This document shows, one piece after another, positions 8,412 to 56,878 of a DNA stretch of 64,000 nt; positions within the stretch are counted from its first letter, which is position 1; every line of letters starts with the position of its first letter. The position numbers and the translations under genes are program-made. This DNA is from Novosphingobium barchaimii LL02. Lineage in GTDB: Bacteria; Pseudomonadota; Alphaproteobacteria; Sphingomonadales; Sphingomonadaceae. Below the pieces are notes generated by a model that was not told where the DNA came from, made no database searches, and saw only the letters and a program-made list of their open reading frames with translations. The stretch lies in contig NZ_KQ130453.1 in assembly GCF_001046635.1 (NCBI RefSeq), positions 191,001 to 255,000 of the forward strand. Reading direction: 5' to 3'.

Positions 8412-8500
8412 GGGAACCTCGGGCGCGATGAGAAAGCAAAAGGTGCATCCTTAGCGGACCAGCGGTGCGCAGGAATGTTCCCGTGTTAGTCAGCCCCATC

Positions 8501-8525
8501 GGAACCGCAGGCGCTGCAAAACGTC
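8501..8525 (+). promoter_or_regulatory. Possible EcfG-type promoter for the deaminase gene
   Basis: GGAAC (8501-8505), 16 bp, CGTC (8522-8525), 43 bp before the deaminase ATG. One mismatch to GGAAC-N16/17-CGTT. Confidence 0.4.
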
Positions 8526-8567
8526 AGTTCGGTAGAGAAACGAGATTTCGCAACAGGAGGCCGCCGG

Positions 8568-9062
8568 ATGATAGACGAGGCAGACCATTCATGGATGCGT
8601 CTGGCGATCGAGCTTGCACGGCAAAAGGGCACAAGCCCCCGGGACACCCCGATTGCAGCAGTCGTCGTCATGGAGGGCCGCTTGCTTGCCAGTGCGGTCA
8701 ACGAAACGGAAGAAACCAACGATGCGACTGCCCATGCAGAGATGGTTGCTTTTCGCAAGGGCGGCGCTGCCCATGGTGATATGGATCTGCGAGGGGCAAC
8801 GCTTTACTCGACGCTGCAGCCCTGCGGCATGTGCACGATGGCCTCGATCTGGGCAAAGGTCGGCCGCATCGTCTACGGTGCCGGCCGTGAGGACGTCCAC
8901 TCCATGTATTTCGAGGACCGGCACCTCGACACGATGGACTTCATTCGCGACGCCTGGCGCGACGACCTGACCCTCGAAGGCGGATGCCTGACCGAGGAGT
9001 GCTGCAGGCTGTATTTCCGACCGGACGACGATGTTCCGTTGGAAGATCAGGGCAACATCTGA
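8568..9062 (+). CDS. Zinc-dependent nucleoside/cytidine deaminase family protein
   Basis: 164 residues with the zinc site of the cytidine/guanine/tRNA adenosine deaminase superfamily: His56-Ala-Glu58 and Pro85-Cys86-Gly-Met-Cys89. His and both Cys bind zinc and Glu58 shuttles protons during hydrolytic deamination. A strong AGGAGG precedes ATG 8568. The length and lack of tRNA-binding basic residues favour a base/nucleoside deaminase (guanine deaminase-like) over TadA. Likely stress-controlled, given the upstream EcfG-like motif and neighbours. Confidence 0.9.
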   Translation: MIDEADHSWMRLAIELARQKGTSPRDTPIAAVVVMEGRLLASAVNETEETNDATAHAEMVAFRKGGAAHGDMDLRGATLYSTLQPCGMCTMASIWAKVGRIVYGAGREDVHSMYFEDRHLDTMDFIRDAWRDDLTLEGGCLTEECCRLYFRPDDDVPLEDQGNI

Positions 9063-9191
9063 GCGGCTGCGCGTCATCCTGGCTCAAGAAGCGTTCCAGG
9101 GGCAGGTCCATATAGGCGAGAAAGCCGCGCGGAACGCCGTCTCCGTTCGGCCGTTGATGGACGGGGCGGCCAAAGATTTCGGAAAAATCGA

Positions 9192-10601: not shown

Positions 10602-10664
10602 CTGCAGGACAGATCGGCAAAATCGAGTGACGATGGACCGCCTCAAGTCCTTGCAGCCAGTCAG
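10598..10664. terminator. Imperfect long-range hairpin between convergent genes
   Basis: CTGACTGCAGGAC (10598-10610) can pair imperfectly with the segment at 10647-10664 (GTCCTTGCAGCCAGTCAG) across a 36-base loop. It lies exactly between two convergent gene ends and could serve as a bidirectional terminator; no T-tract. Confidence 0.25.
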
Positions 10665-10667
10665 CCG

Positions 10668-11081
10668 TCAACCGCGTAAGTTGTCGGGTACTACCCCACC
10701 ATTCTCTGCCAGCTTGTCCATAACGGCGCGATGAAGGGCAATGTTCTGCTCGGCAGATCCATCGGCGCCGGCGTGGACGTTCAACTCAGCGCCGAGTTCC
10801 TTGCGGGCAGTGATGCTTGAATCAAGGCCCAACAGCTTCAGAAGATCGACTATCGAAGTCCTGTAGTTGCCCCCGTGATCGTCATTCATCTGGGCCATAG
10901 CCTCCAGCACTGCGCCGACTTCAACGGTCTGGGGGGCAGTGGCCGGGGCGGGCGCTGTAACGGGGGCGGGCTGCGGCACCGGGCTGGCTGTAGGCGCGGG
11001 CGGTGCCGCTGCCGCGGCGGGTGCTGCCTTAGCTACATCGTGATGAAATATCTTTTTCATGATGTTTCCGAAGATGCTCAT
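10668..11081 (-). CDS. DUF3597 domain protein
   Basis: 137 residues. Starts MSIFGNIMKKIFHH, then an Ala/Pro-rich linker (about 18-50), then the DUF3597 domain with YRTSIVDLLKLLGLDSS, ARKELGAELN and the C-terminal ALHRAVMDKLAENGG. Function unknown; homologues are often near LysM or stress genes. AGGAGC precedes the ATG at 11081. Divergent from the DUF4142 lipoprotein gene. Confidence 0.88.
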   Translation of the reverse strand: MSIFGNIMKKIFHHDVAKAAPAAAAAPPAPTASPVPQPAPVTAPAPATAPQTVEVGAVLEAMAQMNDDHGGNYRTSIVDLLKLLGLDSSITARKELGAELNVHAGADGSAEQNIALHRAVMDKLAENGGVVPDNLRG

Positions 11082-11168
11082 GCCATGCTCCTGTCGGGCG
11101 CCGGCGGGGTTCGGCGGCGCGCCTTCGATGTTTTCGATAGTACAACGCTCCGGCGAGAAAGGTGTTGC

Positions 11169-11194
11169 GGAACGTTTGGGGGCGCCTGGCCGTT
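11169..11194 (+). promoter_or_regulatory. EcfG-type general stress promoter
   Basis: Perfect GGAAC (11169-11173), 17 bp, CGTT (11191-11194), about 40 bp upstream of the DUF4142 gene start. This matches the established alphaproteobacterial EcfG consensus and predicts PhyR/NepR/EcfG control. Confidence 0.6.
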
Positions 11195-11233
11195 GAACCG
11201 ATATCTGGAACTTTTCAACTTGGAGCGACGATC

Positions 11234-11794
11234 ATGAAGCAGTCTCTACTGCTCGCAGTGTCATTGGCAGTGCTCGGCCTGGCGGGCTGCAATAAACAGT
11301 CGGACGCGCCAAGCGAGCCGGCTGCAAATGTGGCATCGCCGAGTACTTCTCCTGAGGCAAGCGCGGTCAAGGCCGGAGAAGGCCAGGCTTTCGCAAACAT
11401 AGCTGCTGCCAGCGATGCCTTCGAGATCGAAAGTTCCAAGCTCGCGATCACCAAAGCGACGACGTCGAAAATAAAGTCTTATGCCAACAATATGATCGAG
11501 GCGCATACTGAATCGACAGTAGAACTTAAGGCGGCTGCGGGCGCAACATCGCCGGCAATCACACCGGACGCGGCGCTTACCGCGGCGCAGAAGGCCACGC
11601 TTGACCAATTGGTCGCCAAGTCCGGCGCTGATTTCGACCGTGCCTATGTGGCCTCTCAGACTTCTGCACATGCAGAGGCACTCGATGCGTTAAAGGGCTA
11701 TGCAGCAGGAGGCGAGGTTGCCTCGCTGAAGGCGTTCGCTACGAAGATGATCCCGACCGTAGCAGCGCACCTCAACATGGCGAAAAGCATTTGA
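11234..11794 (+). CDS. DUF4142 family lipoprotein
   Basis: 186 residues from ATG 11234 with GGAGCG upstream. Lipobox LAGC (Cys18) after a hydrophobic signal. The DUF4142 domain is an all-helical, ferritin-like bundle; visible here are FANIAAASDAFEIESSKLA, the conserved Lys/Lys/Tyr/Ala region around KIKSYANNMIEAH, and FDRAYVASQTSAHAEALDA. Periplasmic and membrane-anchored; a stress-protein role is usual but the biochemistry is unknown. The upstream open frame from 11162 runs through the promoter and is not coding. Confidence 0.9.
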   Translation: MKQSLLLAVSLAVLGLAGCNKQSDAPSEPAANVASPSTSPEASAVKAGEGQAFANIAAASDAFEIESSKLAITKATTSKIKSYANNMIEAHTESTVELKAAAGATSPAITPDAALTAAQKATLDQLVAKSGADFDRAYVASQTSAHAEALDALKGYAAGGEVASLKAFATKMIPTVAAHLNMAKSI

Positions 11795-11861
11795 TCGGCG
11801 GTATCAGCGGGCGATCGCGAGGTAAGGTAATTTTGCCCAGGAATAATAGCGGGGGTCTGCA

Positions 11862-12032
11862 TTGAGTACGATTGAACGGGCATTCGAGCTTGCCAGGACT
11901 GGCGATTTCGAAAGTGTCCAAAAAATTCGTGACCAGCTTGCGAAGGAGCATTTTTCACATGTGCGTGAGCATCTTGATGGGTCCTCGATCCGCAAGCAAC
12001 TCATGCAACTTATTCGAATGGCCAGGAAGTAG
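11862..12032 (+). CDS. Conserved 56-residue helical protein
   Basis: Begins TTG (11862) and reads STIERAFELARTGDF then SVQKIRDQLAKE and IRKQLMQLIRMARK before TAG at 12032. The pattern (N-terminal ERAFELARTG repeat-like helix followed by a basic helix) resembles a family of tiny sphingomonad/alphaproteobacterial proteins of unknown function, possibly nucleic-acid-binding. GGGGG lies upstream of the TTG. Third gene of the DUF3597/DUF4142 stress group; no perfect EcfG motif of its own was seen. Confidence 0.65.
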   Translation: MSTIERAFELARTGDFESVQKIRDQLAKEHFSHVREHLDGSSIRKQLMQLIRMARK

Positions 12033-12369
12033 GCTTACGCAGAATCAAGCAACTTCAATTACATGATGAAAATTGTAATCGTCCACAGCTGTAACACAGC
12101 GAGGCTGAAGAACGGCTTTTTTTGAGCGGCAAAACTTCTATGCCTTCAATTCGAAAGGTTGCCCCAGATATCACAACTGAGCCGCGCGAGTGTGCCATCT
12201 GCGGAATTGCACCGCGCCCCGATCGGGGGCGAAGGCTGCGGCGCATCGCTCGAGAAGCAAACACCAATGTTTGAAAGGTTGATCTGGCGCAACCCGGCTA
12301 GCTCAGGGAGGGGCATGCCCTGAACGGAGCAGACCTGGAGCAATTCCGTTAGCCTGACGTGGTTTTTCA

Positions 12370-12567
12370 CTAGCGGCGGCACTTGCCGAGCGGGTGATGG
12401 CGGCCGGGCGATCTATCAATATTCTGGTCGACAACGCAGGTGTCGCGGCGCCTGCCAAAGCACGAGACTATTGTCGACGGCTTCGAGATCCAACCTGGCA
12501 TCAACCATCTGTCCCCAAGATAGCGACTTTCCTGGTTCGGCGTTCGCTCAGTGTCTCCAGCGTATCG
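12370..12567 (+). pseudogene. Remnant of a short-chain dehydrogenase/reductase gene
   Basis: From 12370 one frame reads LAAALAERVMAAG then INILVDNAGVAAP, the SDR NNAG-type motif. After a +1 shift near 12467 the next frame reads TIVDGFEIQPGINHL, the SDR segment usually written DGFE.Q.GTNHLG, then stops at 12521-12523. A third fragment around 12550 reads SLSVSSVS, like the SDR VVxVSS strand. Upstream (Rossmann GxxxGxG) and downstream (YxxxK) parts are missing. A frameshifted, deleted gene fragment. Confidence 0.6.
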
Positions 12568-12591
12568 CTTGGGCCGACAGCCCAAGCGATA
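12563..12591. terminator. Strong hairpin after the TonB receptor gene
   Basis: Perfect 12-base arms TATCGCTTGGGC / GCCCAAGCGATA around CGACA, 21 bp past the stop of the minus-strand receptor gene. No T-tract follows on either strand, so it may be a weak intrinsic terminator or a transcript-protecting hairpin. Confidence 0.5.
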
Positions 12592-12611
12592 TCACGAACG
12601 TGCGTTCGCGT

Positions 12612-14912
12612 TCAGAACTTGCCCGAAAGCGATCCGCCGATGATGCGCGGTTCGTTGAACACGGCCGCCATATAGTTCTCGATCACACCCTTGAGGTTCT
12701 TCTCATTGGTGATGTTGCGTGCGAAAGCGGCGATCTCGTAGCGGCCGCCGGGAGCCGTGTAGCCGATCTTCAGGCCGCCCTCGAAATCCCCGCGCGAGTA
12801 GAACTCGGCGGTCTTGTAGAGCACGAAGTTGGTATACCCCTGCCAGGTCCAGTCGGTCGAGGCGAAGAGCGAGCCGCCGTTGCCGAGGGGAACATCGTAA
12901 CGCGCCGTGATGTTGGCGGTGTACTTGGGGGCGTTGGGCAAGGGATTGCCGTCGATCTGCGCAAAAACGCCGCGACCCGGCACTGTGACGGTGGGGTCCT
13001 GAACCGTGCAAACGACTACGCCATTGAGCGCGCAGACCTGTGCGTAGACGTTCTTGTCTTTAATCTCGGTGTGCAGCAGGCTGAGCCCTGCGGTGAGCGA
13101 GAGGTTGGGGATCGGCCGTGCTTCCAGTTCGGCTTCCAGGCCGTAAGCCTGGGCCTTGTCGGCATTGAACAGCACGCCGTTGCCGTCGCTGTCGTTGCCG
13201 TTGAGCTGGATGTCCTTCACCCGATACGCGAAGCCCGATAGGTTGAAGCGCACGCGGTTGCCAAGGAGGCTGGTCTTGATGCCGGCCTCGCCGGAAAGGA
13301 TCGTCTCCGAATCCGCGGTGGTGAAGTCCGAGTTGAACACGGCCGAGCGACCCTGGATGGTCGGGCCACGAAAGCCGCGCGCTACGCGGGCATAAAGGCT
13401 GACTTCCGGGCTGGCCTCATAGAGCACGCTGACGTCCCAGCTGGGCTGTTCGTCGGAAAGGCGCACATAACGGCGGCCGGTGTAGCTGACCGAGCCGTCG
13501 ACGCGGTCGGCGGTCTTGAGCAGGCGGGTCTTTTTGGTGTCGTTGGTGTAGCGTCCTCCCGCAGTAACCGTCAGGCCCGGCGCGAGTTCGTAGCTCAGCT
13601 GCCCGAACAGACCCCAGCTGGTGTTCTGGTTGCGCAGGCGAACCCAGTTGTTCGGATTATTAGCGGGTGGAGTGAGGAAGAAGGCGCGTTGGTAAAAGTC
13701 GGTGATGTTGCGCTCGTCAAAGTACATTGCGCCGACCTGCCACTTAAAGCGGGTGTCGCCGTTGCTGGACAGGCGCAGTTCCTGGGTCAGTTGGTCGAGA
13801 TCGCGAAGGTTGCCTTGGGATTCGCCGTAGCCGTTGGGCACGCCGGCAACGGGATAGTCCGCAGCCGCGCCGCCGTCGGTATCGCCTCGGCTATAACCCG
13901 AAGTGGTTTCCCAGGCAGTGATCGAGGTGAGCGTGACGCCGCCGAAATCGAGCGCGATGCGATTGGAGGCGCCGTAGGTGTCATACGCCTGCGGGTTGTT
14001 ATCCGCTTCGTCGAGCGCGATTTCGTCGCGCGGTTCGGCGCTGGCGTCGTTTGAACCCTTTTTCAGCGCGGCGCGGTGGAAGATCGTCGAAGTGCCGTCG
14101 TACTTGCGGGCATGGAAGCTGGTGAGCATCGAGAAAGGGCTGCCCTGAGGTGCAAGCAGTAACTGGACGCGGGCATCGCGTTCCTCGAAGCCACCCATGG
14201 CGTTTTTCCTGGGCGACACCGTGCCATCGGCGCTGGGGCCGGTGTAGACGTTGTCTATCCAGTCGTCACGGCGCTGGTAGAGACCCGAAACGCGCACGGC
14301 CAGAGTGTCCGCGACGATCGGCCCGCCCACGCCCGCGTCGACCGAGGCCGAGCCGTATTCGCCGTAGCTGGCATTGAAACGGCCGGTCCAGCGATCGGTG
14401 GAGGGCTTGATGGAATCGAACTTGATGATGCCCGCGGTGGTGTTGCGGCCAAACAGGGACCCCTGCGGGCCGCGCAGCACTTCCACCTGGTCCATATCGT
14501 AGACTGGGTTGGATTTCAGGACGACGTGTTCCAGCACGACGTCGTCCTGGATGATCGAAACCGGCTGAGAGGCGCCGAGGTAGAAGTCGATGTTGCCCAG
14601 GCCCCGGATGTAGAAGCGCGGGAAGATGCGACCCGTAGTGGTTTCGGCATAGAGTCCCGGGACGCGGCCCGAGAGCGCGAGGATATCGTCGCCGCCAGCC
14701 TGCAAATTGCGGAGCTGGTCACCCGCGACCACGCCGACCGAAACCGGAACCTGCTGGAGATTTTCGGTACGGCGCTCAGCCGTTACCACGATATCGCCAA
14801 GGCCGGTATCGGCGGGGGCCGTTTCCTGTGCCAAGGCGGCAGTCGACACGCTCATGGCGGCAAGGCCGCAGGTGAGGTGAAGGGTCTTCTTGGCGAGCGC
14901 TGTAATTAGCAC
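12612..14912 (-). CDS. TonB-dependent outer membrane receptor
   Basis: 766 residues from GTG 14912. Signal peptide of about 28 residues ending ALAQ, TonB-box-like IVVTAERR, then the plug (VPVSVGVVAGDQLR, RFYIRGLG, VEVLRGPQGSLFGRNTTAGIIKF) and a 22-stranded barrel ending in an aromatic residue (GSLSGKF). The plug type is that of the large sphingomonad receptor group for carbohydrates, aromatics or siderophores; the substrate cannot be read. Divergent from another receptor gene with 290 bp between starts, in which no Fur-like box was seen. Confidence 0.9.
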   Translation of the reverse strand: MLITALAKKTLHLTCGLAAMSVSTAALAQETAPADTGLGDIVVTAERRTENLQQVPVSVGVVAGDQLRNLQAGGDDILALSGRVPGLYAETTTGRIFPRFYIRGLGNIDFYLGASQPVSIIQDDVVLEHVVLKSNPVYDMDQVEVLRGPQGSLFGRNTTAGIIKFDSIKPSTDRWTGRFNASYGEYGSASVDAGVGGPIVADTLAVRVSGLYQRRDDWIDNVYTGPSADGTVSPRKNAMGGFEERDARVQLLLAPQGSPFSMLTSFHARKYDGTSTIFHRAALKKGSNDASAEPRDEIALDEADNNPQAYDTYGASNRIALDFGGVTLTSITAWETTSGYSRGDTDGGAAADYPVAGVPNGYGESQGNLRDLDQLTQELRLSSNGDTRFKWQVGAMYFDERNITDFYQRAFFLTPPANNPNNWVRLRNQNTSWGLFGQLSYELAPGLTVTAGGRYTNDTKKTRLLKTADRVDGSVSYTGRRYVRLSDEQPSWDVSVLYEASPEVSLYARVARGFRGPTIQGRSAVFNSDFTTADSETILSGEAGIKTSLLGNRVRFNLSGFAYRVKDIQLNGNDSDGNGVLFNADKAQAYGLEAELEARPIPNLSLTAGLSLLHTEIKDKNVYAQVCALNGVVVCTVQDPTVTVPGRGVFAQIDGNPLPNAPKYTANITARYDVPLGNGGSLFASTDWTWQGYTNFVLYKTAEFYSRGDFEGGLKIGYTAPGGRYEIAAFARNITNEKNLKGVIENYMAAVFNEPRIIGGSLSGKF

Positions 14913-39407: not shown

Positions 39408-41837
39408 TCAGTACTTGAAGCGGGCTTCGACGCCGAACGTACGCGGGTTCACGATCGTCTGGCGGTAGTAACGCACGGCAACACCGTCATTCACGCCGAT
39501 GCGTGAACGATCCTGTCCGACCGAGGCCACGGCGTATTTGTCGAAGATATTGTTCGCGAACAGGCTGATGCTGTACTTGTCGGTTTCATAGGCAAGCGTT
39601 GCGCGGTGCAGCACGTAGCTTGGAATCTTGTCGCCATAGCCCCGGTCCCAGCCGACCCGCGACACGACGTTGCCGCGGTAGGTTGTGGTCCAGTTGGCGA
39701 TCAGGTTTCCTTCCGTCATCGGCATGGTGTAAGTGACGCCAAGACTGCCGGAGTTCTTCGGTGAGCCGGGGAGGCGGTCACCGTCCAAGGCGTCGAGCTG
39801 GGTGAACTTACGCGGCAGGTTGGGATTAGCGTTCGACCTGTATGGGCCATAATATCCCGGGATCGTGCGGATGGTGATGATACCCGGTACGTCCTCCGTC
39901 AACTTGGCATCGGTGTAGGAATAGGTGCCCTGAATCGACAACTGGGGGACCGGCTTGAACTGGAATGAGGCTTCAAAACCCTGCGATTTGGCGGAGCCGC
40001 CATTCACGGTAATGCCGGTGGCGCCGTTGATGGTTGCGGAGTCTACCTGAATGCCCTGCCATTTGATCTGGTAGACGTCGAAATTGAAGGACAGCTTGCG
40101 GTCGAACAACTGCATTCGCATGCCGATTTCGGCGTTCTTCGTCTTGTCCGGGCCGTACATGAGTTCGTTCGGCAGCGCGCAGGCATTCTGCACTGTACTA
40201 AGGTCTGCCGGGCAGGGGCCGACGCGGTTTGGACCGCCGATACGATAACCTTTGCTGTAAGTGCCGTAGACCATAAGGTCCGGGGTGAAATTGTAGGACG
40301 TATTGAATTTCCAGACCCAGCCGTCCTGCTTGGCCGATCCGCCGGCGGCATCGACATCGTAGGGGCTCAGCGGATCGCCAAGCAGAGGCAGGACGATTCC
40401 GCCCTGGATATTGGACGAATACTTGAAATAGCGCGCGCCGCCGGTGACCTGCCACTGCGGCGTGACGCGGAAGGTGCCTTCGCCGAAGATGGCCTTCTCC
40501 GTCACCTTGGACTTGGTATAGCTGACGTATTCGAGGTCATCAGGGTTGTTTGGAACACCGTAAAAGTCCGAAAGGCCCGGGACGTGCTCGGCGTAGTCGT
40601 TGTGGTATTTCTGTTCGTTGTAGAAGCCGCCCAGAACCCAGCTGAATGGGCCGCCGTGGCGTGAAACCAGGCGAATTTCCTGGTTGAACTGCTTGCGACG
40701 GTTGTCAGTTTCGTTCCAGCTCGAAAACGCCGGGAACAGTTCGTAGTCGTAGTCCAGGTCTAGCAGCAGGTCGGTGTTGTCCGTCTGCGAACGCCCCCGG
40801 ACATTGGTATAGGCGCTTGTCGAGACGAGGTCTGCGATATCCGCGATGTTCGCGTTGATTTCCATGCTGGCAAGGTGAGCGCGGCGGTTGACCGGCTCGG
40901 CATAGCGGCTGGCGTTTTCGTACTTGCCCGTCCCCAGTACGCCGGCGCTGTTGGACTGGGCTCCATCGGTCTTGGTCCGCTGGAAGGCGTAAGTGAAGAT
41001 TACCTTGAGGTCTTCGGTGGTCTGGACGAGCAGTTGGTTGCGCGTGGTGAAGGTCTTCTCGAAGTTGAGATCCTCGCGCTTGTGCAGGTTGGCGGTGTAG
41101 TCCGCGCCGATCGGACGATCGGTGCCGCTGGGTTGGGGCGATGAAACGCCGGGCTGGTTGATGAGCAGCGGATAGTCGATGAAGCCGGGGTCGTAGTAAT
41201 AGCCGGTCGCCGAACGGAAGGCGATGTGATCCTTCACGATCGGAATGTTGATCATCCCGTCGACCTGATAGCCGGGTTTGCTGCCATGGTCCTTGCTATA
41301 GAAGCGGCCATGCATTTCGCCTTCGTATTCATCCACGTTCGGGCGGTTCGGGATATAACGGATCGCGCCTGCCAGCGTACCGAGGCCGTAGAGCGTACCT
41401 TGCGGACCGAGCAGCGTTTCCACGCGCGCGATGTCGAGCAGCTTGAAATCGTAGTAGAGCGGAACTTCACCCAGATAAACGCCAAGCGAGTCGTCGTAGC
41501 TGGCGCCATTGGAGCCCACGTCGGAAGCGTTTAGACCACGCAGCACGATTGATCCGGTTGAACCCGGCCCTGTGTCCGAAATCGTCATGCCGGGGGTGAA
41601 ATCGGCGAGATCGCGCACGTCGTCTATCCGCTGGCGAGCCAGTTCCTCGGAACCGATTGCCTGGATGTTGATCGGTGCATCCATGATCGTCGTGGTGCGG
41701 CGGGTTCCGGTCACGACGATGGCGTTGCCGTCATCGGAGACTGCGGCGTCCTGCGCCATTGCCGGCGTTACGAATGCTGTGCCCGTAAACACGGTCGCCG
41801 ATAACAGCCCCGCTCTCAGTTTTGCGCGATATGACAT
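39408..41837 (-). CDS. TonB-dependent outer membrane receptor
   Basis: 809 residues. GGGGAAAC precedes ATG 41837. Signal peptide ending AMAQ, TonB-box-like IVVTGTRR, plug with DVRDLADFTPGM, SIVLRGLNAS and VETLLGPQGTLYGLGTLAGAIRYIP, barrel ending EARFKY. Resembles the large receptor group beside catabolic genes in sphingomonads, for carbohydrates, terpenoids, steroids or other organics. It is 196 bp downstream of, and on the same strand as, the di-iron hydroxylase gene, so the two are likely expressed together. Substrate unknown. Confidence 0.9.
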   Translation of the reverse strand: MSYRAKLRAGLLSATVFTGTAFVTPAMAQDAAVSDDGNAIVVTGTRRTTTIMDAPINIQAIGSEELARQRIDDVRDLADFTPGMTISDTGPGSTGSIVLRGLNASDVGSNGASYDDSLGVYLGEVPLYYDFKLLDIARVETLLGPQGTLYGLGTLAGAIRYIPNRPNVDEYEGEMHGRFYSKDHGSKPGYQVDGMINIPIVKDHIAFRSATGYYYDPGFIDYPLLINQPGVSSPQPSGTDRPIGADYTANLHKREDLNFEKTFTTRNQLLVQTTEDLKVIFTYAFQRTKTDGAQSNSAGVLGTGKYENASRYAEPVNRRAHLASMEINANIADIADLVSTSAYTNVRGRSQTDNTDLLLDLDYDYELFPAFSSWNETDNRRKQFNQEIRLVSRHGGPFSWVLGGFYNEQKYHNDYAEHVPGLSDFYGVPNNPDDLEYVSYTKSKVTEKAIFGEGTFRVTPQWQVTGGARYFKYSSNIQGGIVLPLLGDPLSPYDVDAAGGSAKQDGWVWKFNTSYNFTPDLMVYGTYSKGYRIGGPNRVGPCPADLSTVQNACALPNELMYGPDKTKNAEIGMRMQLFDRKLSFNFDVYQIKWQGIQVDSATINGATGITVNGGSAKSQGFEASFQFKPVPQLSIQGTYSYTDAKLTEDVPGIITIRTIPGYYGPYRSNANPNLPRKFTQLDALDGDRLPGSPKNSGSLGVTYTMPMTEGNLIANWTTTYRGNVVSRVGWDRGYGDKIPSYVLHRATLAYETDKYSISLFANNIFDKYAVASVGQDRSRIGVNDGVAVRYYRQTIVNPRTFGVEARFKY

Positions 41838-42033: not shown

Positions 42034-43050
42034 TCAGTGGGCGGCGGACACGTTATGCATTCGCCTGATCCTTGCGATCAGGGGTTGGAACGGGAACATG
42101 AACTGTTCCGGGATCGACAGTCTCTTGCACTCGTCCTGGCCGACGACGATTGCTTCGCCTTCGCGGTAGGTGCCGAAAACGCGGTCGATGACGATTAACG
42201 AATTGGCGTAGTTGCAACGGGTGCTTTCGTAGTCCGTCGAATGGTGCAGGCTGTGGTGTCTGATCGTTGTGAAAAAGAACGAATAGAATTTGGGTGGATC
42301 GGCGCGAACATTGGCGTGCGCAAAGGTCGACACCACGCTCAAGACGTTGAACGCGCAGAATTTTGCCGAAATAGGAAGATCGAAAAGCGCCAGTACGCTG
42401 AGGCTGATAAGGAACAACTCTATCGGATTGCCCACAGCGCCCTTCGCTGCATTGAGCTGCGTGATGTGATGATGCGGAGCGTGCGTCAGCCAGAACGGGG
42501 TCCAGTTATGCATCAGCCGGTGCATCCAGTACTGGCCGAACTCGATGATGAAGATCACGAGCGCGACCTGCACGATAAACGGCAGCTGCATCGCCCATTG
42601 CGTGGTGATGCCCAGCGATGTCTTGAAAGCGAGCAGGGGATCTTCCGCCAGCGTGGTAGAAACCCAGGAAATAACGGTGGAGCTCAAGACCACGTAGAAC
42701 AGATCCGTGGCAAATTCACTCTTGTTCATGCGCCAGACCGAATGTCGTTCATGAACCAATTCGAGCCCGAGGACGATCAGGGTGGTAAGTGATGAGGCGA
42801 GGATGATGGACCATCCATTGTCGACCCACGACTTCGGTAAATAGGCCCAAAACAGGACGACGACCGCCACGAAGGCAGGTGGGGCCAGGTTGAACAGACG
42901 GTTCTTCAGGGAGGCGCTGCTCTGAGCGTCCGTGATGGGCAGGCGTGAGAAGCCGTAGGCAGAGGCGCGTTTTGCGATGGAATGAGCAGCATCGGTGGCC
43001 GATTGCTCGTCACTCGAAAGAACCGCCTTGTCGACCGTCAGTTGTTCCAT
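42034..43050 (-). CDS. Membrane di-iron hydroxylase (sterol desaturase / fatty acid hydroxylase superfamily)
   Basis: 338 residues from ATG 43050 with GAGGGA upstream; the frame is open further to 43350 but without a start signal. Four or more hydrophobic segments (about 57-72, 82-98, 112-132, 155-172, 208-248) and three His boxes: His177-RLM-His181, HAPHHH (190-195) and His265-His-SLHH (to 270), which bind the two irons. Inner-membrane O2-dependent hydroxylase or desaturase; electron partner not in the window. An operator-like motif identical in layout to those of the guanidine operon lies about 100-125 bp upstream. Confidence 0.88.
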   Translation of the reverse strand: MEQLTVDKAVLSSDEQSATDAAHSIAKRASAYGFSRLPITDAQSSASLKNRLFNLAPPAFVAVVVLFWAYLPKSWVDNGWSIILASSLTTLIVLGLELVHERHSVWRMNKSEFATDLFYVVLSSTVISWVSTTLAEDPLLAFKTSLGITTQWAMQLPFIVQVALVIFIIEFGQYWMHRLMHNWTPFWLTHAPHHHITQLNAAKGAVGNPIELFLISLSVLALFDLPISAKFCAFNVLSVVSTFAHANVRADPPKFYSFFFTTIRHHSLHHSTDYESTRCNYANSLIVIDRVFGTYREGEAIVVGQDECKRLSIPEQFMFPFQPLIARIRRMHNVSAAH

Positions 43051-43148: not shown

Positions 43149-43174
43149 TATTACCTTTCTCGTCAAGAGTATTA
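43149..43174. promoter_or_regulatory. NikR-like operator motif, di-iron hydroxylase promoter
   Basis: TATTAC, 14 bp, GTATTA: one mismatch to the TATTAC-N14-GTAATA seen before the transporter operon and the second regulator. On the minus strand TTGACG within the spacer could be a -35 box for the hydroxylase gene. A further isolated half-site GGTAATA lies at 43299-43305. Confidence 0.5.
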
Positions 43175-43446
43175 TTGTCACGGAAACGCCTTTTGCCCTT
43201 GCAGTGCTGAAGGTGTGGGAAAACCGCCATGCATTCGCCCCAGCGGGTCCGTTTTTTACGGCGTGCGTTATTCGCTTCAGCAATCGATATCGGGGGATGG
43301 TAATAAATTTGGCGGACTCTCGCCGCCGACTCGTCGCAGGCGCGGGACATGGCATTGTCGCGCTTTGATCCTTCGCCGCTTCACGTGAAGCGATAGGGGC
43401 TCTTGTCTATCGTGTTCGGGCAATCATCGAACTGATTGGTCGCGGC

Positions 43447-43920
43447 CTAATGATCGGTATGGAGGTGGCTGAATGCCGCCAGCAGTTCCACGCTGGCAGG
43501 ATCGCGTCCATTGCGGGCGCACCATACCGCGATGCAGTGGCGCAACGGCGCGGCGCAGGTCCCAATCGCTACGCAGTTGCACGAAGCCCTCGTCGAGTAA
43601 AAGCGCGCGGTCGTTGACGAAATAGAGCGGCGCAAGAAGTGCACCATAGGGGTACGCCTTGTTCTGGCGCAGCATCGCCGTATGCGGGTTGTATCAATGG
43701 ACCTGTGCTCCCGGATCGGTGTTGTTCATGCATGACGAAGAACCGCAGATCCACCGCCTGGGGAAGCTGCCAGGCGCCGGGACATTGGTCTTGAAATCGA
43801 CAGGGGCCGTGCGAACCACGGCATTCCGCTCATCCCATGCCGGCTGTCATAGTCGTCGCACATGATATAGGGGATGGTGCGATACCGGTTTGTGCGGCTG
43901 GCGTAGCGTTGCAGGATTTG
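43447..43920 (-). pseudogene. Degenerate coding remnant, family not recognised
   Basis: Minus-strand pieces in shifting frames look coding: an upstream frame with QILQRYASRTNRYRTIPYIM and CDDYDSRHGM, then another with APVDFKTNVPAPGSFPRR, an in-frame TGA, LLAPLYFVNDRALLLDEGFV and QLRSDWDLRRAVAPL, and a third with AVWCARNGRDPASVELLAA ending at TAG. Two frameshifts plus a stop would be needed to join them. The rest of the 950-bp region between the hydroxylase and the first regulator shows no gene. Confidence 0.3.
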
Positions 43921-43998
43921 TCCGCGTCCGATCGGTTAACCTGGGCGAACGAAATTTTTGAGTTTGAGGATAGTGATGATGGTTGAGAAGGACCTGGC

Positions 43999-44508
43999 TT
44001 GAGCACCGACCCCGGCAGTCTTGCCCGGCTCAGCATGAGCCTTCCAGCCGAGCTGTTTCGCCAGTTGGACGTCATGGTCGAAGAACGCGGCCTGCCTTCC
44101 CGTTCGCAGCTCATCGCGGAACTGATCCGCCATGCCCTTGCAGAGCACGAGGCTAAGACCCGTCCCGAAGAGATGCTCGCGGGGACAATCACGCTCGTCT
44201 ACCGGGGAGATCGGGGCAGGGTGCGCCAGCAGCTCGCCGAGAGCCAGGCCGAGTATCTGAAGGAAGTCATCTCGTCCCAGCACGTCTTTCTCGAGGATGA
44301 TCAGTCGCTGGAGGTTTTGCTGGTGCAGGGGCCGGCGACCAGGTTGAAAGACCTGTGCGACGCACTGCGCAGCATTCGCGGCGTGCATCAGCTTCAGCTG
44401 GTCACCACGACCGCGCTGCTGCCGCCGCTCCACGAGCAGGAAGGCCGTGAGCACGAAGATGCCGTCCGCCCCCGTAGGCAGCAACCGAAGAACGAAATCG
44501 CTGCCTGA
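43999..44508 (+). CDS. NikR-fold ribbon-helix-helix regulator lacking nickel ligands (paralogue 1)
   Basis: 169 residues from TTG 43999 with AAGGACC upstream. Residues 7-50: ribbon-helix-helix DNA-binding domain (LARLSMSLPAELFRQLD, then RSQLIAELIRHAL). Residues 62-137: the ACT-like NikR C-terminal domain (GTITLVYRGDRGRVRQQL, YLKEVISSQHVFLEDDQSLE). Aligned without gaps to E. coli NikR, the nickel ligands His76, His87, His89 and Cys95 become Ala84, His95, Phe97 and Ser103; three of four are lost, so high-affinity square-planar nickel binding is not expected. Ends with a charged tail. Located 200 bp before the transporter operon; probably its repressor, responding to another ligand (inference). 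Confidence 0.85.
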   Translation: MSTDPGSLARLSMSLPAELFRQLDVMVEERGLPSRSQLIAELIRHALAEHEAKTRPEEMLAGTITLVYRGDRGRVRQQLAESQAEYLKEVISSQHVFLEDDQSLEVLLVQGPATRLKDLCDALRSIRGVHQLQLVTTTALLPPLHEQEGREHEDAVRPRRQQPKNEIAA

Positions 44509-44624
44509 TCGGACGCCGGCTTCTCGCGGGGCCGGGACCGCTCTTACCGATGTGATGGCAGAGATATCATCGCCGCGCTTTGTCCCGACCTGCATCGCCT
44601 TTGCCACGCATGATATCGGTTGAG

Positions 44625-44650
44625 TATTACAGACTCTCAAGAGCGTAATA
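44625..44650. promoter_or_regulatory. NikR-like operator before the transporter operon
   Basis: Perfect TATTAC-N14-GTAATA, 62-87 bp before the binding-protein start. TAATAT overlapping the right half could be a -10 element, which would fit repression. The layout parallels the E. coli NikR site GTATGA-N16-TCATAC. Confidence 0.55.
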
Positions 44651-44711
44651 TTTTGTGATGGACAACCTTTCGAATCGCGGCGATGCTGCATTGCGAAAGG
44701 GGACCCGAGTC

Positions 44712-45794
44712 ATGATCGTATCGATCCGTAGAATAGCCAAGGTCGCAATGTTGACCGGAGCGCTTCTCACCGCCGGTTGCTCGCAGACGTCAGGCGATGC
44801 GTCGGCAAAGCGCACTGAATTCAATATCGGATGGTCGATCTATGCCGGGTGGATGCCCTGGCCCTATGCCCAGCAGTCCGGCATCGTGAAGAAGTGGGCC
44901 GATAAGTACGGCATCAAGATCAACATCGTCCAGGTCAACGACTACGTCGAATCGGTCAACCAGTACACCGCTGGCAAGCTGGACGGTGTAACCGTTGCCA
45001 ACATGGATGCCCTCACGATCCCTGCCGCTGGCGGCAAGGATACCAGCGCCATCATCGTCGGTGATTATTCGAACGGCAACGACGGTATCCTGATGAAGGG
45101 CGCGGGCGACCTGAAGGCCATCAAGGGCAAGCAGGTGAATCTCGTCGAGCTTTCGGTGTCCCACTATCTCCTCGCTCGCGGCTTGAGTTCGGTCGGTCTT
45201 TCGATGAGCGACGTGAAGACGATGAACACCGGCGATGCCGATATTGTCGGCGCTTTTGCCAGCCCGGACGTTACCGCAGCGGTTGCCTGGAACCCCCAGC
45301 TTTCCACAATGAAAGCGCAGGCCGGCGCGAAGGAAGTGTTCAGCTCTGCCGACATTCCGGGCGAAATTCTCGACCTGCTGGTAGTCGATACCACCACGCT
45401 CAAGGCCAACCCCAATCTGGGCAAGGCGCTCGCCGGCATCTGGTACGATACCGTGGCGCTGATGAAGCGTCAGGATGCCGAAGGCAAGGCTGCCCGCGCG
45501 GGAATGGCCAAGCTGGCAGGTGCGACGCCTGAGGCTTTCGACAGCCAGCTCACCACCACGTACCTCTACGCCGATCCCAAGGCGGCGGTGGCGGCCACTT
45601 CCGCCCCGGCGCTGGTGACGACGATGACCCGTGTGCGTGACTTCAGCTTTTCCAAGGGTCTGTTCAAGGGCGCTGGTTCGGCTGACGCGGTGGGCATGTC
45701 GTTCCCGGGCGGCAAGACGCTCGGCGATGCGCAGCATGTGACCCTGCGCTTCGACGAAAGCTACATGAAGCTGGCGGCCGACGGAAAGCTCTGA
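44712..45794 (+). CDS. ABC transporter substrate-binding lipoprotein (urea/guanidine operon)
   Basis: 360 residues from ATG 44712 (AAGGGGA upstream; earlier in-frame ATG 44658 lies by the operator). Lipobox LTAGC (Cys20). NMT1/SsuA-like fold: FNIGWSIYAGWMPWPYAQQSGIVKKW, then VNQYTAGKLDGVTVANMD, and the hinge-crossing segment NLVELSVSHYLLARGL. This is the subgroup that accompanies urea-carboxylase genes and captures the N-substrate in the periplasm; Trp/Tyr-rich start suggests cation-pi binding of a guanidinium-like ligand (inference). First gene of a long plus-strand operon ending at 55761. Confidence 0.88.
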   Translation: MIVSIRRIAKVAMLTGALLTAGCSQTSGDASAKRTEFNIGWSIYAGWMPWPYAQQSGIVKKWADKYGIKINIVQVNDYVESVNQYTAGKLDGVTVANMDALTIPAAGGKDTSAIIVGDYSNGNDGILMKGAGDLKAIKGKQVNLVELSVSHYLLARGLSSVGLSMSDVKTMNTGDADIVGAFASPDVTAAVAWNPQLSTMKAQAGAKEVFSSADIPGEILDLLVVDTTTLKANPNLGKALAGIWYDTVALMKRQDAEGKAARAGMAKLAGATPEAFDSQLTTTYLYADPKAAVAATSAPALVTTMTRVRDFSFSKGLFKGAGSADAVGMSFPGGKTLGDAQHVTLRFDESYMKLAADGKL

Positions 45795-45850
45795 CAGCTC
45801 AGGTCCCGCTTTTCGAGAGTGGTCCGCTTCCTAGAAAATGGAATGACGAC

Positions 45851-46666
45851 ATGCATTGGGTGAATCGTCAAATCGGGCGAGGCGACCGTGTTATGCTCGG
45901 CGCGTTGCCGATCCTGGTCCTGGCGGTGCTTTACATCGTCATGGCCGCAAGTCGCCACGCCGCGAACCCGGCAGACAAGATCCTGCCGCTGCCGGGCAGT
46001 ATGGCACAGAGCATGGCCGCGCTGATCTTCCAGCCGGACCAGCTTACCGGGCAATTGCTGTTCTGGGCGGACACGCTGGCGAGCCTGCAGCGACTGGGCA
46101 TTGGCCTTGGCATATCCACGGTCCTGGCGATCGTGATTGGCCTTGCGCTGGGCGCCTTGCCGCCGGTGCGCGCTATTCTGGGGCCGCTGGTGACGGGCAT
46201 TGCGGTCGTCCCGCCAATCGCCTTGCTGCCCATTTTGTTCATCGCGCTGGGACTGGGTGAGACCGCCAAGGTCGCCCTGATCGTTGTGGGTATCGCGCCG
46301 GTCATGGTCCGCGACATCGCGGCCCACGTGGCGGCCCTGCCAAGGGAGCAGATCATCAAGGCGCAGACCCTGGGGGCGAGCAGTTGGCAGGTTATCATCC
46401 GCGTAGCGCTGCCTCAGGCCATGCCGCGACTTCTTCAGGCGATGCGTCTGTCGCTGGGCCCGGCATGGGTGTTCCTGATCTCGGCGGAGGCGATCGCGTC
46501 CGATGTCGGCCTCGGATACCGGATCTTCCTCGTTCGGCGCTACCTCTCGATGGACGTGATCCTGCCTTACGTCGCCTGGATTGCGATCCTGGCGATCGTC
46601 ATGGACGTGACGCTGAATGTCATGAGCCAGCGGCTGTTTCCCTGGGCGCACGGAGAACGTCATTGA
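45851..46666 (+). CDS. ABC transporter permease (urea/guanidine operon)
   Basis: 271 residues with about six hydrophobic segments and the EAA-type cytoplasmic loop QTLGASSWQVIIRVALPQAMP that contacts the ATPase. BPD_transp_1 family, as SsuC/TauC/NrtB. GGAATGAC precedes ATG 45851; 56 bp after the binding-protein gene. Its stop overlaps the ATPase start. Confidence 0.9.
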   Translation: MHWVNRQIGRGDRVMLGALPILVLAVLYIVMAASRHAANPADKILPLPGSMAQSMAALIFQPDQLTGQLLFWADTLASLQRLGIGLGISTVLAIVIGLALGALPPVRAILGPLVTGIAVVPPIALLPILFIALGLGETAKVALIVVGIAPVMVRDIAAHVAALPREQIIKAQTLGASSWQVIIRVALPQAMPRLLQAMRLSLGPAWVFLISAEAIASDVGLGYRIFLVRRYLSMDVILPYVAWIAILAIVMDVTLNVMSQRLFPWAHGERH

Positions 46667-47433
46667 GCACGCTACTCAGCCTTCGCGACGTCTGGGTCGA
46701 ATATGGCGACAGGATCATCATCGAGAAACTCGATCTCGATATCCAGGCCGGCGCTTTCGTCTCGATCATCGGGCCGTCGGGTGCAGGCAAGAGCAGCTTC
46801 CTGCGCCTGATCCTCGGGCAGGAAGCGCCGACACGCGGCACCATCCTGCTCGACGGGGCGCCGTTGATACCGGAATGCGGGCCCGATCGAGGGGTCGTTT
46901 TTCAGCGCTACTCGGTGTTTCCGCACCTGTCGGCGCTGCGGAACACGATCCTCGGGATGGAATGCGCGCAGGCCCCGCTGACCGGGCGCCTGTTCGGCGC
47001 CGCGCGCCGCGCCGCCAAGGACGAAGCAGCCGCGATGCTGACGGCGGTGGGGCTGGGGGACAGCATGCACCTTTTTCCCGCGCAGATGTCCGGCGGCATG
47101 CAGCAACGACTGGCGATTGCCCAGGCGCTGGTGAAGCGGCCCCGTATCCTGCTGCTGGACGAGCCATTCGGCGCGCTCGATCCCGGCATCCGGGCGGATA
47201 TGCATGCGCTTATCCGCGGGTTGTGGCGTGACTATTCACTGACGATCATCATGGTGACGCACGACATTCGCGAAGCCTTTACCCTGGGAACCCGTGTTCT
47301 GGCCCTCGACAAGCGCCGTCACGACCCGCACGCACCCCACCGTTTCGGCGCCACCGCAGTCTACGATCTGCCCATGCGCGATCGAGCCGAAAATTCTCTT
47401 GGCAGCGAAGAAGTATTACCATTGACTGAATAG
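46663..47433 (+). CDS. ABC transporter ATP-binding protein (urea/guanidine operon)
   Basis: 256 residues from TTG 46663, whose last two bases fall in the permease TGA. Walker A GPSGAGKSS, Q-loop VFQRYSVF, signature MSGGMQQRLAIAQAL, Walker B ILLLDEPFGALDP, H-loop VTHDIREA. TauB/SsuB-like. A longer open frame extends back into the permease gene but has no start. The stop codon lies inside the operator of the second regulator (47414-47439). Confidence 0.92.
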   Translation: MSTLLSLRDVWVEYGDRIIIEKLDLDIQAGAFVSIIGPSGAGKSSFLRLILGQEAPTRGTILLDGAPLIPECGPDRGVVFQRYSVFPHLSALRNTILGMECAQAPLTGRLFGAARRAAKDEAAAMLTAVGLGDSMHLFPAQMSGGMQQRLAIAQALVKRPRILLLDEPFGALDPGIRADMHALIRGLWRDYSLTIIMVTHDIREAFTLGTRVLALDKRRHDPHAPHRFGATAVYDLPMRDRAENSLGSEEVLPLTE

Positions 47434-47439
47434 GTAATA
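47414..47439. promoter_or_regulatory. NikR-like operator before the second regulator
   Basis: Perfect TATTAC-N14-GTAATA with extended inner C/G pair (TATTACC/GGTAATA), 18-43 bp before the second regulator start and overlapping the end of the ATPase gene. A promoter here would give the regulator and the enzyme genes a second, autoregulated transcript. Confidence 0.6.
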
Positions 47440-47456
47440 ATTGAGAGACTCTCTCC

Positions 47457-47933
47457 ATGAGCTCCGAATCCGCAAGCCTTGCCAGGCTCAGCATGAGTCT
47501 CCCGGCAGACCTCTTCCGACAACTCGACACGATGGTGGCGGAACGCGGCCTGCCTTCTCGTTCGCAGCTTATCGCCGAGCTGATCCGCCATGCTCTTGCC
47601 GAGCATGAATCGCTCACCCGTCCGGACGAGATGCTCGCCGGTACGATTACCCTGGTTTACCGCAGCGAGCGCGGCCGCGTGCGGCACCTGCTGTCGCAGA
47701 CGCAGGCCACGTATCTCAAGGAGGTCATCTCCTCGCAGCATGTGGTGCTGGAGGATGACCAGTCCCTCGAAGTCCTGCTCGTGCAGGGGCCGGCCGTAAG
47801 GCTGAAAGAGCTTTGCGACGCAATCAGGCGGGTGCGCGGGGTTCAGCAGCTTGAGCTTGTCACCACGACTTCGCTCCTGCCGCCTCTGCACGAACAGGAA
47901 GCCGGCACCTCCAAACCGATCGGAGTGATTTGA
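47457..47933 (+). CDS. NikR-fold ribbon-helix-helix regulator lacking nickel ligands (paralogue 2)
   Basis: 158 residues, very similar to the product at 43999, including identical DNA-binding strand residues (LARLSMSLPA) and the C-terminal VTTT-LLPPLHEQE segment. In NikR numbering: His76 to Ala84, His87 kept as His95, His89 to Val97, Cys95 to Ser103. The identical DNA-contact strand predicts the same operator as paralogue 1, while the ligand-domain differences (Phe97/Val97, Arg/His76) could separate affinities. Stop overlaps the next start (TGATG), so it is co-translated with the enzyme genes. Confidence 0.85.
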   Translation: MSSESASLARLSMSLPADLFRQLDTMVAERGLPSRSQLIAELIRHALAEHESLTRPDEMLAGTITLVYRSERGRVRHLLSQTQATYLKEVISSQHVVLEDDQSLEVLLVQGPAVRLKELCDAIRRVRGVQQLELVTTTSLLPPLHEQEAGTSKPIGVI

Positions 47934-48757
47934 TGACCGAAACTCTGGCTAACCCGCTTGCGGCCCGCGATCACGCGCGGGGCATGGAAGGCACCGTCAC
48001 CGAGAGCATGCCAATCCTGCCTCCGGTGGCGCATGACCTGCCGCCCGAAGTGGCGGCGGCCGACCTGCTTTGGGAAGAAACGATTGCCGCCGGCGGTTAT
48101 GCCACGCGCCGACTATCGCGCGGCGCACGCCTGCGGCTGATCGACGTGAAAGGCGATGCCTGCGCTTCGCTGCTTGTCTTCAATGCGGAAATGCCCGCCG
48201 AAAGGCTCAACTTGGCGGATACCGTCAAGGTGCAGTGGAATGCTTATCTTGGCGCCGGCAAGCTGCTGCTGTCGGACATGGGACGCGTTATGCTCAGCAT
48301 CCTGGAGGACAACGCGGGCACGCATGACACGTTCTGCGGAACATCCAACGCCGCGACCAATGCGGCAAAGTACGGCGATGGCAGCAATAGCGGCGCCTAC
48401 CCCAGCGGGCGCGATCGCTTCCTGCTGGGGGCCGCCAAGCACGGCCTGGGCCGCCGCGACGTTCATCCGTGCGTGACTTTGTTCAAGGGCGCCCGGATCG
48501 AGGCTGACGGCACGATAACACCGCAGATCGGACCGTTCGCGCCCGGACGCAGCGTGGTGCTGCGCGCTGAAATGGATGTCGTCGTAGTGGTCGCGAACTG
48601 CCCGCACGTCCTCGACCCGCGCGAGGACTGGACAGTTACTCCGCTGCGGGCCTCGGCATGGCGCGGTGCGGTGACGCCGTACGACGATCCGGTGCGTACC
48701 GCCACGCCGGAAGGGCTTCGTGCCTTCCAGAATGCTGAAGACTACTTCCGTCGCTGA
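47933..48757 (+). CDS. DUF1989 urea-amidolyase-associated protein 1 (carboxyguanidine deiminase subunit)
   Basis: 274 residues, DUF1989. Segments LWEETIAAGGYATRRLSRGARLRLIDVKGD, HDTFCGTSNAATNAAKYG and VHPCVTLFKG, with Cys and His residues that could form a metal or catalytic site. Family knowledge: paired DUF1989 proteins beside the carboxylase form carboxyguanidine deiminase, which converts carboxyguanidine to allophanate and ammonia. Overlaps the regulator stop (TGATG); UAAP2 gene follows after 16 bp. Confidence 0.9.
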   Translation: MTETLANPLAARDHARGMEGTVTESMPILPPVAHDLPPEVAAADLLWEETIAAGGYATRRLSRGARLRLIDVKGDACASLLVFNAEMPAERLNLADTVKVQWNAYLGAGKLLLSDMGRVMLSILEDNAGTHDTFCGTSNAATNAAKYGDGSNSGAYPSGRDRFLLGAAKHGLGRRDVHPCVTLFKGARIEADGTITPQIGPFAPGRSVVLRAEMDVVVVVANCPHVLDPREDWTVTPLRASAWRGAVTPYDDPVRTATPEGLRAFQNAEDYFRR

Positions 48758-55761: not shown

Positions 55762-55939
55762 CGCCGGCTGCCGCGCGCCCGGCAAGCCTGAAATGTGCGG
55801 GCATAGTGTAAATACCGCTGATTTGTGCATTTCCATCAATTTGACCTATGACTGAACGGTAAGGTCGGATTACTCTCGGCGAAGGTTGGCGGCCGGCTTT
55901 TACGAAAGCGGGAATTCGCCTTGTTGGGATAACGCATGC

Positions 55940-56878
55940 ATGAGCGAACGAACGCCGTTGATCGACGAGAAATTCGCAAAGCGTGTCGATTGGAACCTGC
56001 TGCGCACCTTTGTCGATATCGTCAGGGCCGGCGGTATCGGCGCGGCGGCAAGGCAGCTTAGCAAGCAACAGCCCAGCATAAGTGCCGCGCTCAAGCGGTT
56101 GGAGGATCATGTCGGTGCCACTTTGCTGCACAGGTCTGTCAACGGCGTTGAAATGACGGCCGCCGGCAAGGCGCTTATGGCACTTTGCGAGGACATGCTC
56201 GAGGCGGCCCGGATGGTTCCGCACCAGGTCGCCCAGGCAACGAGGCGCGTCGAGGGGATAGTTCGCATTCAGATCGTGTCGGGCATCGTCTCCGACGAAT
56301 TCGACCAGGCGCTGGCTAGCTTCCACAGGCGCAATCCGAACATTCATATCGAAATTCGCGTTTCGCCCTGGCGGCAGGTGCTCGATGCGCTGGAACATGG
56401 CGAAGTTGAGATAGGCATCGGCTATGACAGCGGCGTGCGGGGAAGCCTGGCCTATGAGCCACTGTTCATGGAGCGTCAGCAACTTTACTGTGCCCGCAGT
56501 CATCCTCTTTTCGGCTATCGCATAAGCCAGCCCAAGGAGTTGAAAGGCGAAGGTTTCGTGCTCACCGGCGGGGACGAGATCGAGGCTATAACGCATTTAC
56601 GTCGCCGTTACGGACTTGGCGCGCAGGTCACCGGCCTGGCCGAGGATATAAATGAGGCCCGGCGTCTGATCGTCTGCGGGGTCGGCATCGGCTTTCTGCC
56701 CGTGCCCGCCGTGCAGGCCGAAGTGGCAAGAGGTGCGCTATGGCCGCTGCTTCACGCGGATTTCGAACCCTCCTACGATATTTTCCTCCTCGCTCGATCC
56801 GAGCCGGCACGCGATACTGCAACACAGCTTTTTATAGACGAAGTGTTTCGGCGCATTCGTGCGCAGCGCAGGTCATAG
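55940..56878 (+). CDS. LysR-type transcriptional regulator
   Basis: 312 residues from ATG 55940. N-terminal winged HTH with WNLLRTFVDIVRAGGIGAAARQLSKQQPSISAALKRLEDHVG, then a substrate-binding domain. Upstream DNA has a GACCT-N14-AGGTC-like symmetry (about 55839-55866), a possible autoregulatory site. Position right after the guanidine operon suggests it may regulate it, but the spacing and separate leader also allow an unrelated role. Confidence 0.88.
   Translation: MSERTPLIDEKFAKRVDWNLLRTFVDIVRAGGIGAAARQLSKQQPSISAALKRLEDHVGATLLHRSVNGVEMTAAGKALMALCEDMLEAARMVPHQVAQATRRVEGIVRIQIVSGIVSDEFDQALASFHRRNPNIHIEIRVSPWRQVLDALEHGEVEIGIGYDSGVRGSLAYEPLFMERQQLYCARSHPLFGYRISQPKELKGEGFVLTGGDEIEAITHLRRRYGLGAQVTGLAEDINEARRLIVCGVGIGFLPVPAVQAEVARGALWPLLHADFEPSYDIFLLARSEPARDTATQLFIDEVFRRIRAQRRS

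Follow-up and report, generated by a model that had tools for sequence, protein, structure and literature searches.

What can two proteins built like the nickel-responsive repressor NikR be sensing when three of the four nickel ligands are missing from both and the genes around them serve the uptake and breakdown of guanidine? This question is raised by a stretch of 64,000 nucleotides from Novosphingobium barchaimii LL02 (Sphingomonadales; contig NZ_KQ130453.1, positions 191,001 to 255,000), hereafter called the window, in which the NikR-like regulators A (43999..44508, plus strand) and B (47457..47933, plus strand) had been noticed in a sequence-only reading. Our analysis suggests that the two belong to a nickel-independent offshoot of NikR that probably regulates, at the same locus, the transcription of the genes for guanidine uptake and breakdown, in the form of a repressor released by guanidine.

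Copy A (TTG start, 169 residues) and copy B (ATG start, 158 residues) both match the RHH_1 and NikR_C domains, and NikR occupies the top 13 rows of a VIA-align search with copy B. The ribbon-helix-helix plus ACT-like architecture of NikR, claimed in the sequence-only reading, thus holds by domain matches for both copies and by the predicted fold for copy B (AlphaFold2 model, mean pLDDT 82.7, pTM 0.64). Both score under the cut-off of all five listed NCBIfam NikR models, the best score being 102.4 against a cut-off of 105. At the positions of the E. coli NikR ligands His76, His87, His89, and Cys95, copy A carries Ala84, His95, Phe97, and Ser103 and copy B carries Ala84, His95, Val97, and Ser103, so that, as had been proposed, only His87 is kept. 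A near-copy of the E. coli NikR sequence used as alignment reference (L193, from a genome) stands in the same table.

Relatives of A and B came from species genomes, where 76 loci were retained out of 308 relatives, and from plasmid records and further genome samples. Scores are bimodal, and in a quick tree a branch with support 95 separates off 28 of the 29 nickel-type rows. At the ligand positions, HHHC is read in all 29 of these rows, the E. coli sequence included, whereas among 106 distinct relatives of A and B, His89 and Cys95 occur in none, His76 in one, and His87 in every one, a contrast which argues that the ligand loss is not due to chance. As judged from these alignments, the nickel site has been lost throughout the clade, in which E. 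coli position 79 has also changed from His to Leu. Six residues, Thr65, Arg76, Leu87, Ile91, Gln110, and Pro142, are clade-fixed and rare in nickel NikRs, and a ligand pocket probably remains around His95 (E. coli His87). Three outlying relatives read Tyr/Arg-His-His-Thr at the ligand positions and are intermediate between the two types. One outlying protein (L198:8005-8556) passes three of the five NCBIfam NikR cut-offs despite two absent nickel ligands, so that passing such a cut-off does not in itself demonstrate nickel sensing. By annotation, this protein would be named nickel-responsive.

It is most improbable in our judgement that the family is still a metal sensor which holds nickel or another metal through other residues. 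The NikR fold and the kept His87 would agree with this, and other ligands could hold nickel in principle, but His89 and Cys95 are lost in 106/106 relatives and His76 in 105/106, the histidine at position 79 has become leucine, none of 12 neighbouring proteins in a Pfam scan is nickel-related, and no nickel-type NikR was found at E 1e-9 in 147 Sphingomonadales. According to PMC11410670, moreover, the carboxylase route is ATP- and biotin-dependent, and guanidinase is the nickel enzyme.

The genes next to the two regulators identify the substrate of the pathway. Between A and B, and thus bracketed by them as had been described, lie the plus-strand genes of an ATP-binding cassette (ABC) transporter: a substrate-binding protein (44655..45794, with an in-frame ATG at 44712 as the probable true start), which scores 529 bits on TIGR03427 (cut-off 334), a permease (45851..46666), and an ATPase (46663..47433), the latter two recognized by family profile matches. 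Copy B is followed on the same strand by the DUF1989 proteins UAAP1 (TIGR03425; 47933..48757, the listed open reading frame starting at TTG 47930) and UAAP2 (TIGR03424; 48774..49412), by family the subunits of carboxyguanidine deiminase, a carboxylase (TIGR02712; 49409..53005), and an allophanate hydrolase (TIGR02713; 53002..54783), all four above their family cut-offs. The stop codon of copy B overlaps the ATG of UAAP1 as TGATG (47931-47935), in agreement with the translational coupling to the DUF1989 gene that had been noted. An alignment with Kluyveromyces urea amidolyase puts one Asp of the carboxylase opposite Asn1330 and another at 1584 (K. lactis numbering, with an offset of 593 between chain 3va7 and full-length 5i8i taken from the ranges listed for both). 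An Asp pair at these positions separates guanidine from urea carboxylases, according to PMC11410670, and therefore the locus, earlier described as serving guanidine or urea, is assigned to guanidine and not to urea.

A DNA target of the regulators is suggested by an inverted repeat, GTATTAC-N14-GTAATA, which the earlier reading did not mention. Exact copies of its core, TATTAC-N14-GTAATA, lie upstream of the binding-protein gene (44625..44650) and 17 bp ahead of the start codon of copy B (47414..47439); a third, weaker site with one mismatch in 12 (43149..43174) precedes the minus-strand genes for an FA_hydroxylase-family membrane protein (42034..43050; start inferred, listed open reading frame from 43350) and a TonB-dependent receptor (39408..41837), both probable regulon members. 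No strand is assigned to these predicted operators. In the window, 5 of 100 shuffles reach seven matches at three mismatches, and the weight of the evidence lies instead with the 76 sphingomonad loci (1.37 Mb), where the exact 12-base motif with a spacing of 14 occurs 153 times, in 74 loci. Other spacings are nearly empty (none at 6-13 and 16-22, three at 15), and everted or scrambled half-sites are absent from the same 76 loci. In L068 and L072, the two loci without the motif, the contig is short and truncates or lacks the binding-protein gene. In 72/74 loci the motif stands at most 200 bp ahead of the binding-protein gene, and the copy-B site lies 17-19 bp before the start codon across relatives. 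Among 101 NikR-like genes, 45 have no operator within 200 bp; 35 of these 45 lie 9-87 bp after the ATPase gene and, by this position, would share the promoter of the binding-protein gene.

Genome-wide site counts were made in the genomes of ten relatives (about 39 Mb). Each of the 17 exact sites is less than 10 kb away from a NikR-like gene. There are 26 sites with one mismatch, 10 of them outside the gene clusters (nine by more than 10 kb, one by 7.8 kb); a backwards control pattern gives 14 one-mismatch sites in all, which places the 10 outside sites, as a group, at background. Five of them (L231, L232, L233, L234, and L235, from four genomes), chosen for looking alike, all precede FA_hydroxylase-family genes, the remainder being G577:C27, G610:C4, G781:C30, G001:C18, and G758:C6. 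One of these outside hydroxylases shares 40% identity over 283 residues with the FA_hydroxylase of the window cluster, and the family is likely a further member of the predicted regulon. Exact sites also occur in Asticcacaulis (L002), with a NikR-like protein that shares 58% identity with copy B, and in Acinetobacter (L003 and L005), where the corresponding identities are 34% and 31%. In the AT-rich Acinetobacter L003, the number of matches at up to three mismatches is not unusual, since 44 of 200 shuffles reach it, and only the two best operator places, one of them exact, were used. Taken together, the predicted DNA target and regulon are well supported by these comparisons.

The hydroxylase sites bear on what the effector might be. 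It may be a substituted guanidine or an intermediate, such as an alkylguanidine or carboxyguanidine, in place of free guanidine, which overlaps with the explanation that we favour and which we regard as unlikely, though not negligible. An operator ahead of the TonB-receptor and FA_hydroxylase genes would agree with this, as would the FA_hydroxylase genes behind all five outside one-mismatch sites examined of the 10, the creatininase-family gene adjoining outlying relatives, and an annotated 2OG-Fe(II) oxygenase gene behind the operator in Acinetobacter L003. What the NikR-like loci have in common, however, is the carboxylase pathway and, where covered, the transporter. We note that a membrane hydroxylase freeing guanidine from alkylguanidines would fit the operator placement. 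A role as guanidine exporter is not supported for an SMR gene in Acinetobacter L003, its best NCBIfam matches being Qac-type models, all below cut-off. Three Acinetobacter baumannii records listed as plasmids in PLSDB (NZ_CP077849.1, NZ_CP064203.1, and NZ_CP104448.1; 3.7-4.1 Mb) are probably mislabelled chromosomes.

Whether the NikR-like protein itself recognizes the repeat can be approached through position 5 of E. coli NikR, which we take to be a DNA-contacting residue of the ribbon. This residue is Thr in 27 and Ser in 2 of the 29 nickel-type rows, and the ribbon of both copies in the window reads R, S, S. The E. coli NikR site is GTATGA-N16-TCATAC, as given in PMC7055735; recast in the same form, the dyad of the NikR-like loci is GTATTA-N16-TAATAx, that is, it would have NikR geometry with an altered half-site. 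Of 28 nickel-type loci, the five with a clear GTATGA-type dyad (L186, L187, L188, L191, and L196) all have Thr, and the other 23 show no clear dyad within the 3.4 kb scanned. The outlying L197 combines Thr with GTATGAC, and the outlying L198 and L199, like the proteins of the window type, combine Ser with GTATTAC. In a third combination, both copies of genome G696 have Gly, and GTGTTAC-N14-GTAACAC stands upstream of both. This pairing of residue 5 with the half-site is the best evidence that the NikR-like protein binds the predicted site. G696, a member of the Sphingomonadales, has two guanidine pathway loci (L206 and L207), each with its own NikR-like gene and GTGTTAC-type operator.

The distribution of the regulator was compared with that of guanidine riboswitches. 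An Rfam search at gathering score over the whole 64 kb window returned no family and thus no guanidine riboswitch. UAAP1 (TIGR03425) was sought in 398 Pseudomonadota, with 42 genomes above cut-off and one below, and the 43 stretches around it (about 11.5 kb each) were searched with Rfam and a NikR-like profile; the stretch with the sub-cut-off UAAP1 (L171 of G595), which has neither a riboswitch nor a NikR-like gene, was left out of the 42. A guanidine-I or -II riboswitch is present in 35 of the 42 loci, one of which (G285) also has a NikR-like gene, and six of the seven riboswitch-free loci have a NikR-like gene, the seventh (L130 of G383) having neither. This near-exclusion gives a Fisher p of 9e-6 when kinship is ignored. 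A relaxed search, which covered five of the six NikR-like riboswitch-free loci (L156 being left out) and L130, gave no Rfam match even to E 1 in L153, L154, L157, L160, L162, and L130. NikR-like genes of the new or outlying kind occur in 9 of the 398 genomes, eight of them with UAAP1, versus 34 of the 389 other genomes. Among the 147 Sphingomonadales, UAAP1 is found in nine genomes and the NikR-like gene in those same nine and nowhere else. Each of the 10 copies of UAAP1 has the NikR-like match no more than 200 bp upstream, as measured between the two matches. A NikR-like gene and an operator, with no riboswitch, likewise occur in Asticcacaulis L002 and in Acinetobacter L003 and L005.

These distributions also bear on the effector. 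It is rather unlikely that the NikR-like protein is a local regulator of the guanidine genes which answers to nitrogen status or an end product, with glutamine, an ammonium-derived metabolite, or allophanate as corepressor. Amino acids act through ACT domains in other proteins, the C-terminal domain of copy B also matches the ACT domains of amino-acid enzymes, outlying relatives adjoin a type III glutamine-synthetase-like gene, and corepression would preserve the sign of NikR. Such an effector would, however, be expected to reach other nitrogen genes, and all 17 exact operators are at the one locus; furthermore, the same niche is filled by guanidine riboswitches in 35/42 loci. The glutamine-synthetase-like gene forms a recurrent pair with a creatininase-family amidohydrolase gene (L198:2872-8556; L199 about 7470-14700; L197 from 7807; L130:6326-8495), which stands beside outlying NikR-like proteins, in L198 and L199 together with an ABC transporter, and in L130 among guanidine genes with no NikR-like gene. 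One guess is that the pair forms a gamma-glutamylation route feeding guanidine use.

The two regulators of the window had been called almost identical, a description that does not stand, as they are only 78% identical. Both copies are present in 25 of the 76 loci and a single copy in 51, so that the pair is not conserved, in line with a refutation that had been foreseen, while the link between regulator and pathway is kept. The B copies form one clade (25 rows, support 99), and the A copies group with single copies from other genera in the quick tree. Ligand position 89 is Phe in 26/26 distinct A rows and Val in 17/25 B rows. Judging from the separate clades and this Phe/Val split, A and B are old paralogues with a possible difference in their pockets; the dosage or threshold control proposed in the sequence-only reading, though possible, is not supported. 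Copy A has no upstream operator in LL02; its counterpart in the closest relative (L006) has one, in sequence that is different or lacking in LL02. Before copy A, at 43360-43990 of the window, the minus-strand translation is an interrupted frame with the look of a decayed gene or a deletion scar.

A repurposed NikR fold, as proposed in the sequence-only reading, is the best reading of these data because the nickel-site loss is fixed, the regulators are associated with the pathway, and a predicted target is conserved ahead of the pathway genes; that the substrate or an intermediate of the pathway is the ligand is what we infer from this setting. A NikR-like tetramer would bind the operator through its ribbon-helix-helix dimers and block the promoters, and guanidine, which is likely the ligand, or a close guanidino compound would bind in the ACT-like domain, in the region of the retained His87, and release the protein from DNA. 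In NikR, nickel is a corepressor, and the sign would thus be the opposite, with the ligand releasing the protein instead of corepressing. Copy B, being in the operon, would limit its own synthesis, and copy A would be a paralogue without its upstream operator in LL02. The proteins are probably repressors: in relatives, the sites at the hydroxylase/TonB-receptor cluster cover a conserved promoter-like pair, TTGACG/TACCGT, and this overlap, together with the crowding of the copy-B start codon by its site, points to repression. Repression relieved by guanidine is also the simplest scheme for a catabolic pathway, in which induction by the substrate is to be expected. The protein might instead be a ligand-free autorepressor that damps basal expression, with induction left to another factor such as the LysR-type regulator gene at 55886-56878, downstream of the locus; we consider this very unlikely. 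Loss of a metal site demands no new ligand, and a LysR-type gene follows the locus in the window and in 12 of 76 relatives, though flanks may end before it in others; the clade-fixed residues of the ACT-like domain are, by contrast, those expected of a working pocket.

Several observations weigh against a guanidine-released repressor with a guanidine-specific role. The site at the binding-protein promoter leaves 6-9 bp between its end and a conserved -35-like box downstream (TGGACA-N17-RATGYT), a position that would also suit an activator, and the inclusion of a TonB receptor and a membrane hydroxylase in the regulon hints that the substrate may be larger than guanidine. The two nickel-type rows with Ser at position 5 have no clear site within 3.4 kb, and the NikR tree was made by a quick method only. 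An exact repeat at L166:308-333, about 5 kb from a riboswitch-controlled guanidine locus, belongs to a genome without a NikR-like gene and would be a chance occurrence or a relic. Sphingomonadales account for five of the six riboswitch-free loci with a NikR-like gene, the sixth (G577) being outside the sample of that order, and the G383 locus manages with neither regulator. G285 divides the work: a guanidine-II riboswitch stands before the deiminase/carboxylase genes, and the NikR-like gene, with an operator-like site, stands before a set of transporter, creatininase, and glutamine-synthetase genes, an arrangement in which the NikR-like protein is no substitute for a riboswitch and may sense something else. 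G620 has a NikR-like gene without UAAP1, and in G629 the gene lies apart from a riboswitch-controlled UAAP1 locus. No guanidine-I riboswitch passed the cut-off in the 147 Sphingomonadales, in a search that used stricter filters and did not include guanidine-II; its three sub-cut-off guanidine-I matches are all in genomes without the pathway.

A broader proposal, which we hold to be plausible though somewhat short of probable, is that protein transcription factors for guanidine arose from a metal sensor by stepwise ligand loss and replaced riboswitches in Sphingomonadales and, to judge by the loci sampled, also in Asticcacaulis and Acinetobacter. The series would lead from HHHC in nickel NikRs through Tyr/Arg-His-His-Thr in the outlying relatives, which adjoin creatininase and glutamine-synthetase genes, to Ala-His-Phe/Val-Ser or Gln-His-Gln-Val/Ile at the guanidine loci. 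If true, a metal sensor would have evolved to detect an organic cation, with intermediate forms still living, and most lineages would use RNA for a regulatory task that others assign to a protein. If guanidine is bound, the family would be a protein guanidine sensor in a role held elsewhere by a riboswitch and could serve as a protein biosensor for guanidine. The family is a concrete candidate with a defined predicted DNA target, a reporter-ready promoter, and natural variants, and the pairing of residue 5 with the half-site offers a testable recognition rule for ribbon-helix-helix proteins.

We found no published NikR-like guanidine regulator or protein guanidine sensor in a literature search that reached few subscription papers. 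Compared with NikR of E. coli, H. pylori, and P. horikoshii, a nickel-responsive repressor, the proteins described here have lost three of the four nickel ligands, score below the NCBIfam NikR cut-offs, have the predicted half-site GTATTAC instead of GTATGA, and are linked to guanidine genes and not to nickel genes. Like the guanidine-I and -II riboswitches (RF00442 and RF01068), they stand before transporter and carboxylase/deiminase genes; unlike them, they are proteins, and the riboswitches are absent from the window and from six of the seven sampled UAAP1 loci with a NikR-like gene. Finally, all genes of the guanidine carboxylase pathway loci (carboxylase, two DUF1989 subunits, AtzF, and ABC transporter) and the Asp pair are present in the window, which differs from those loci in having a protein regulator instead of a riboswitch and an added TonB receptor and FA_hydroxylase.

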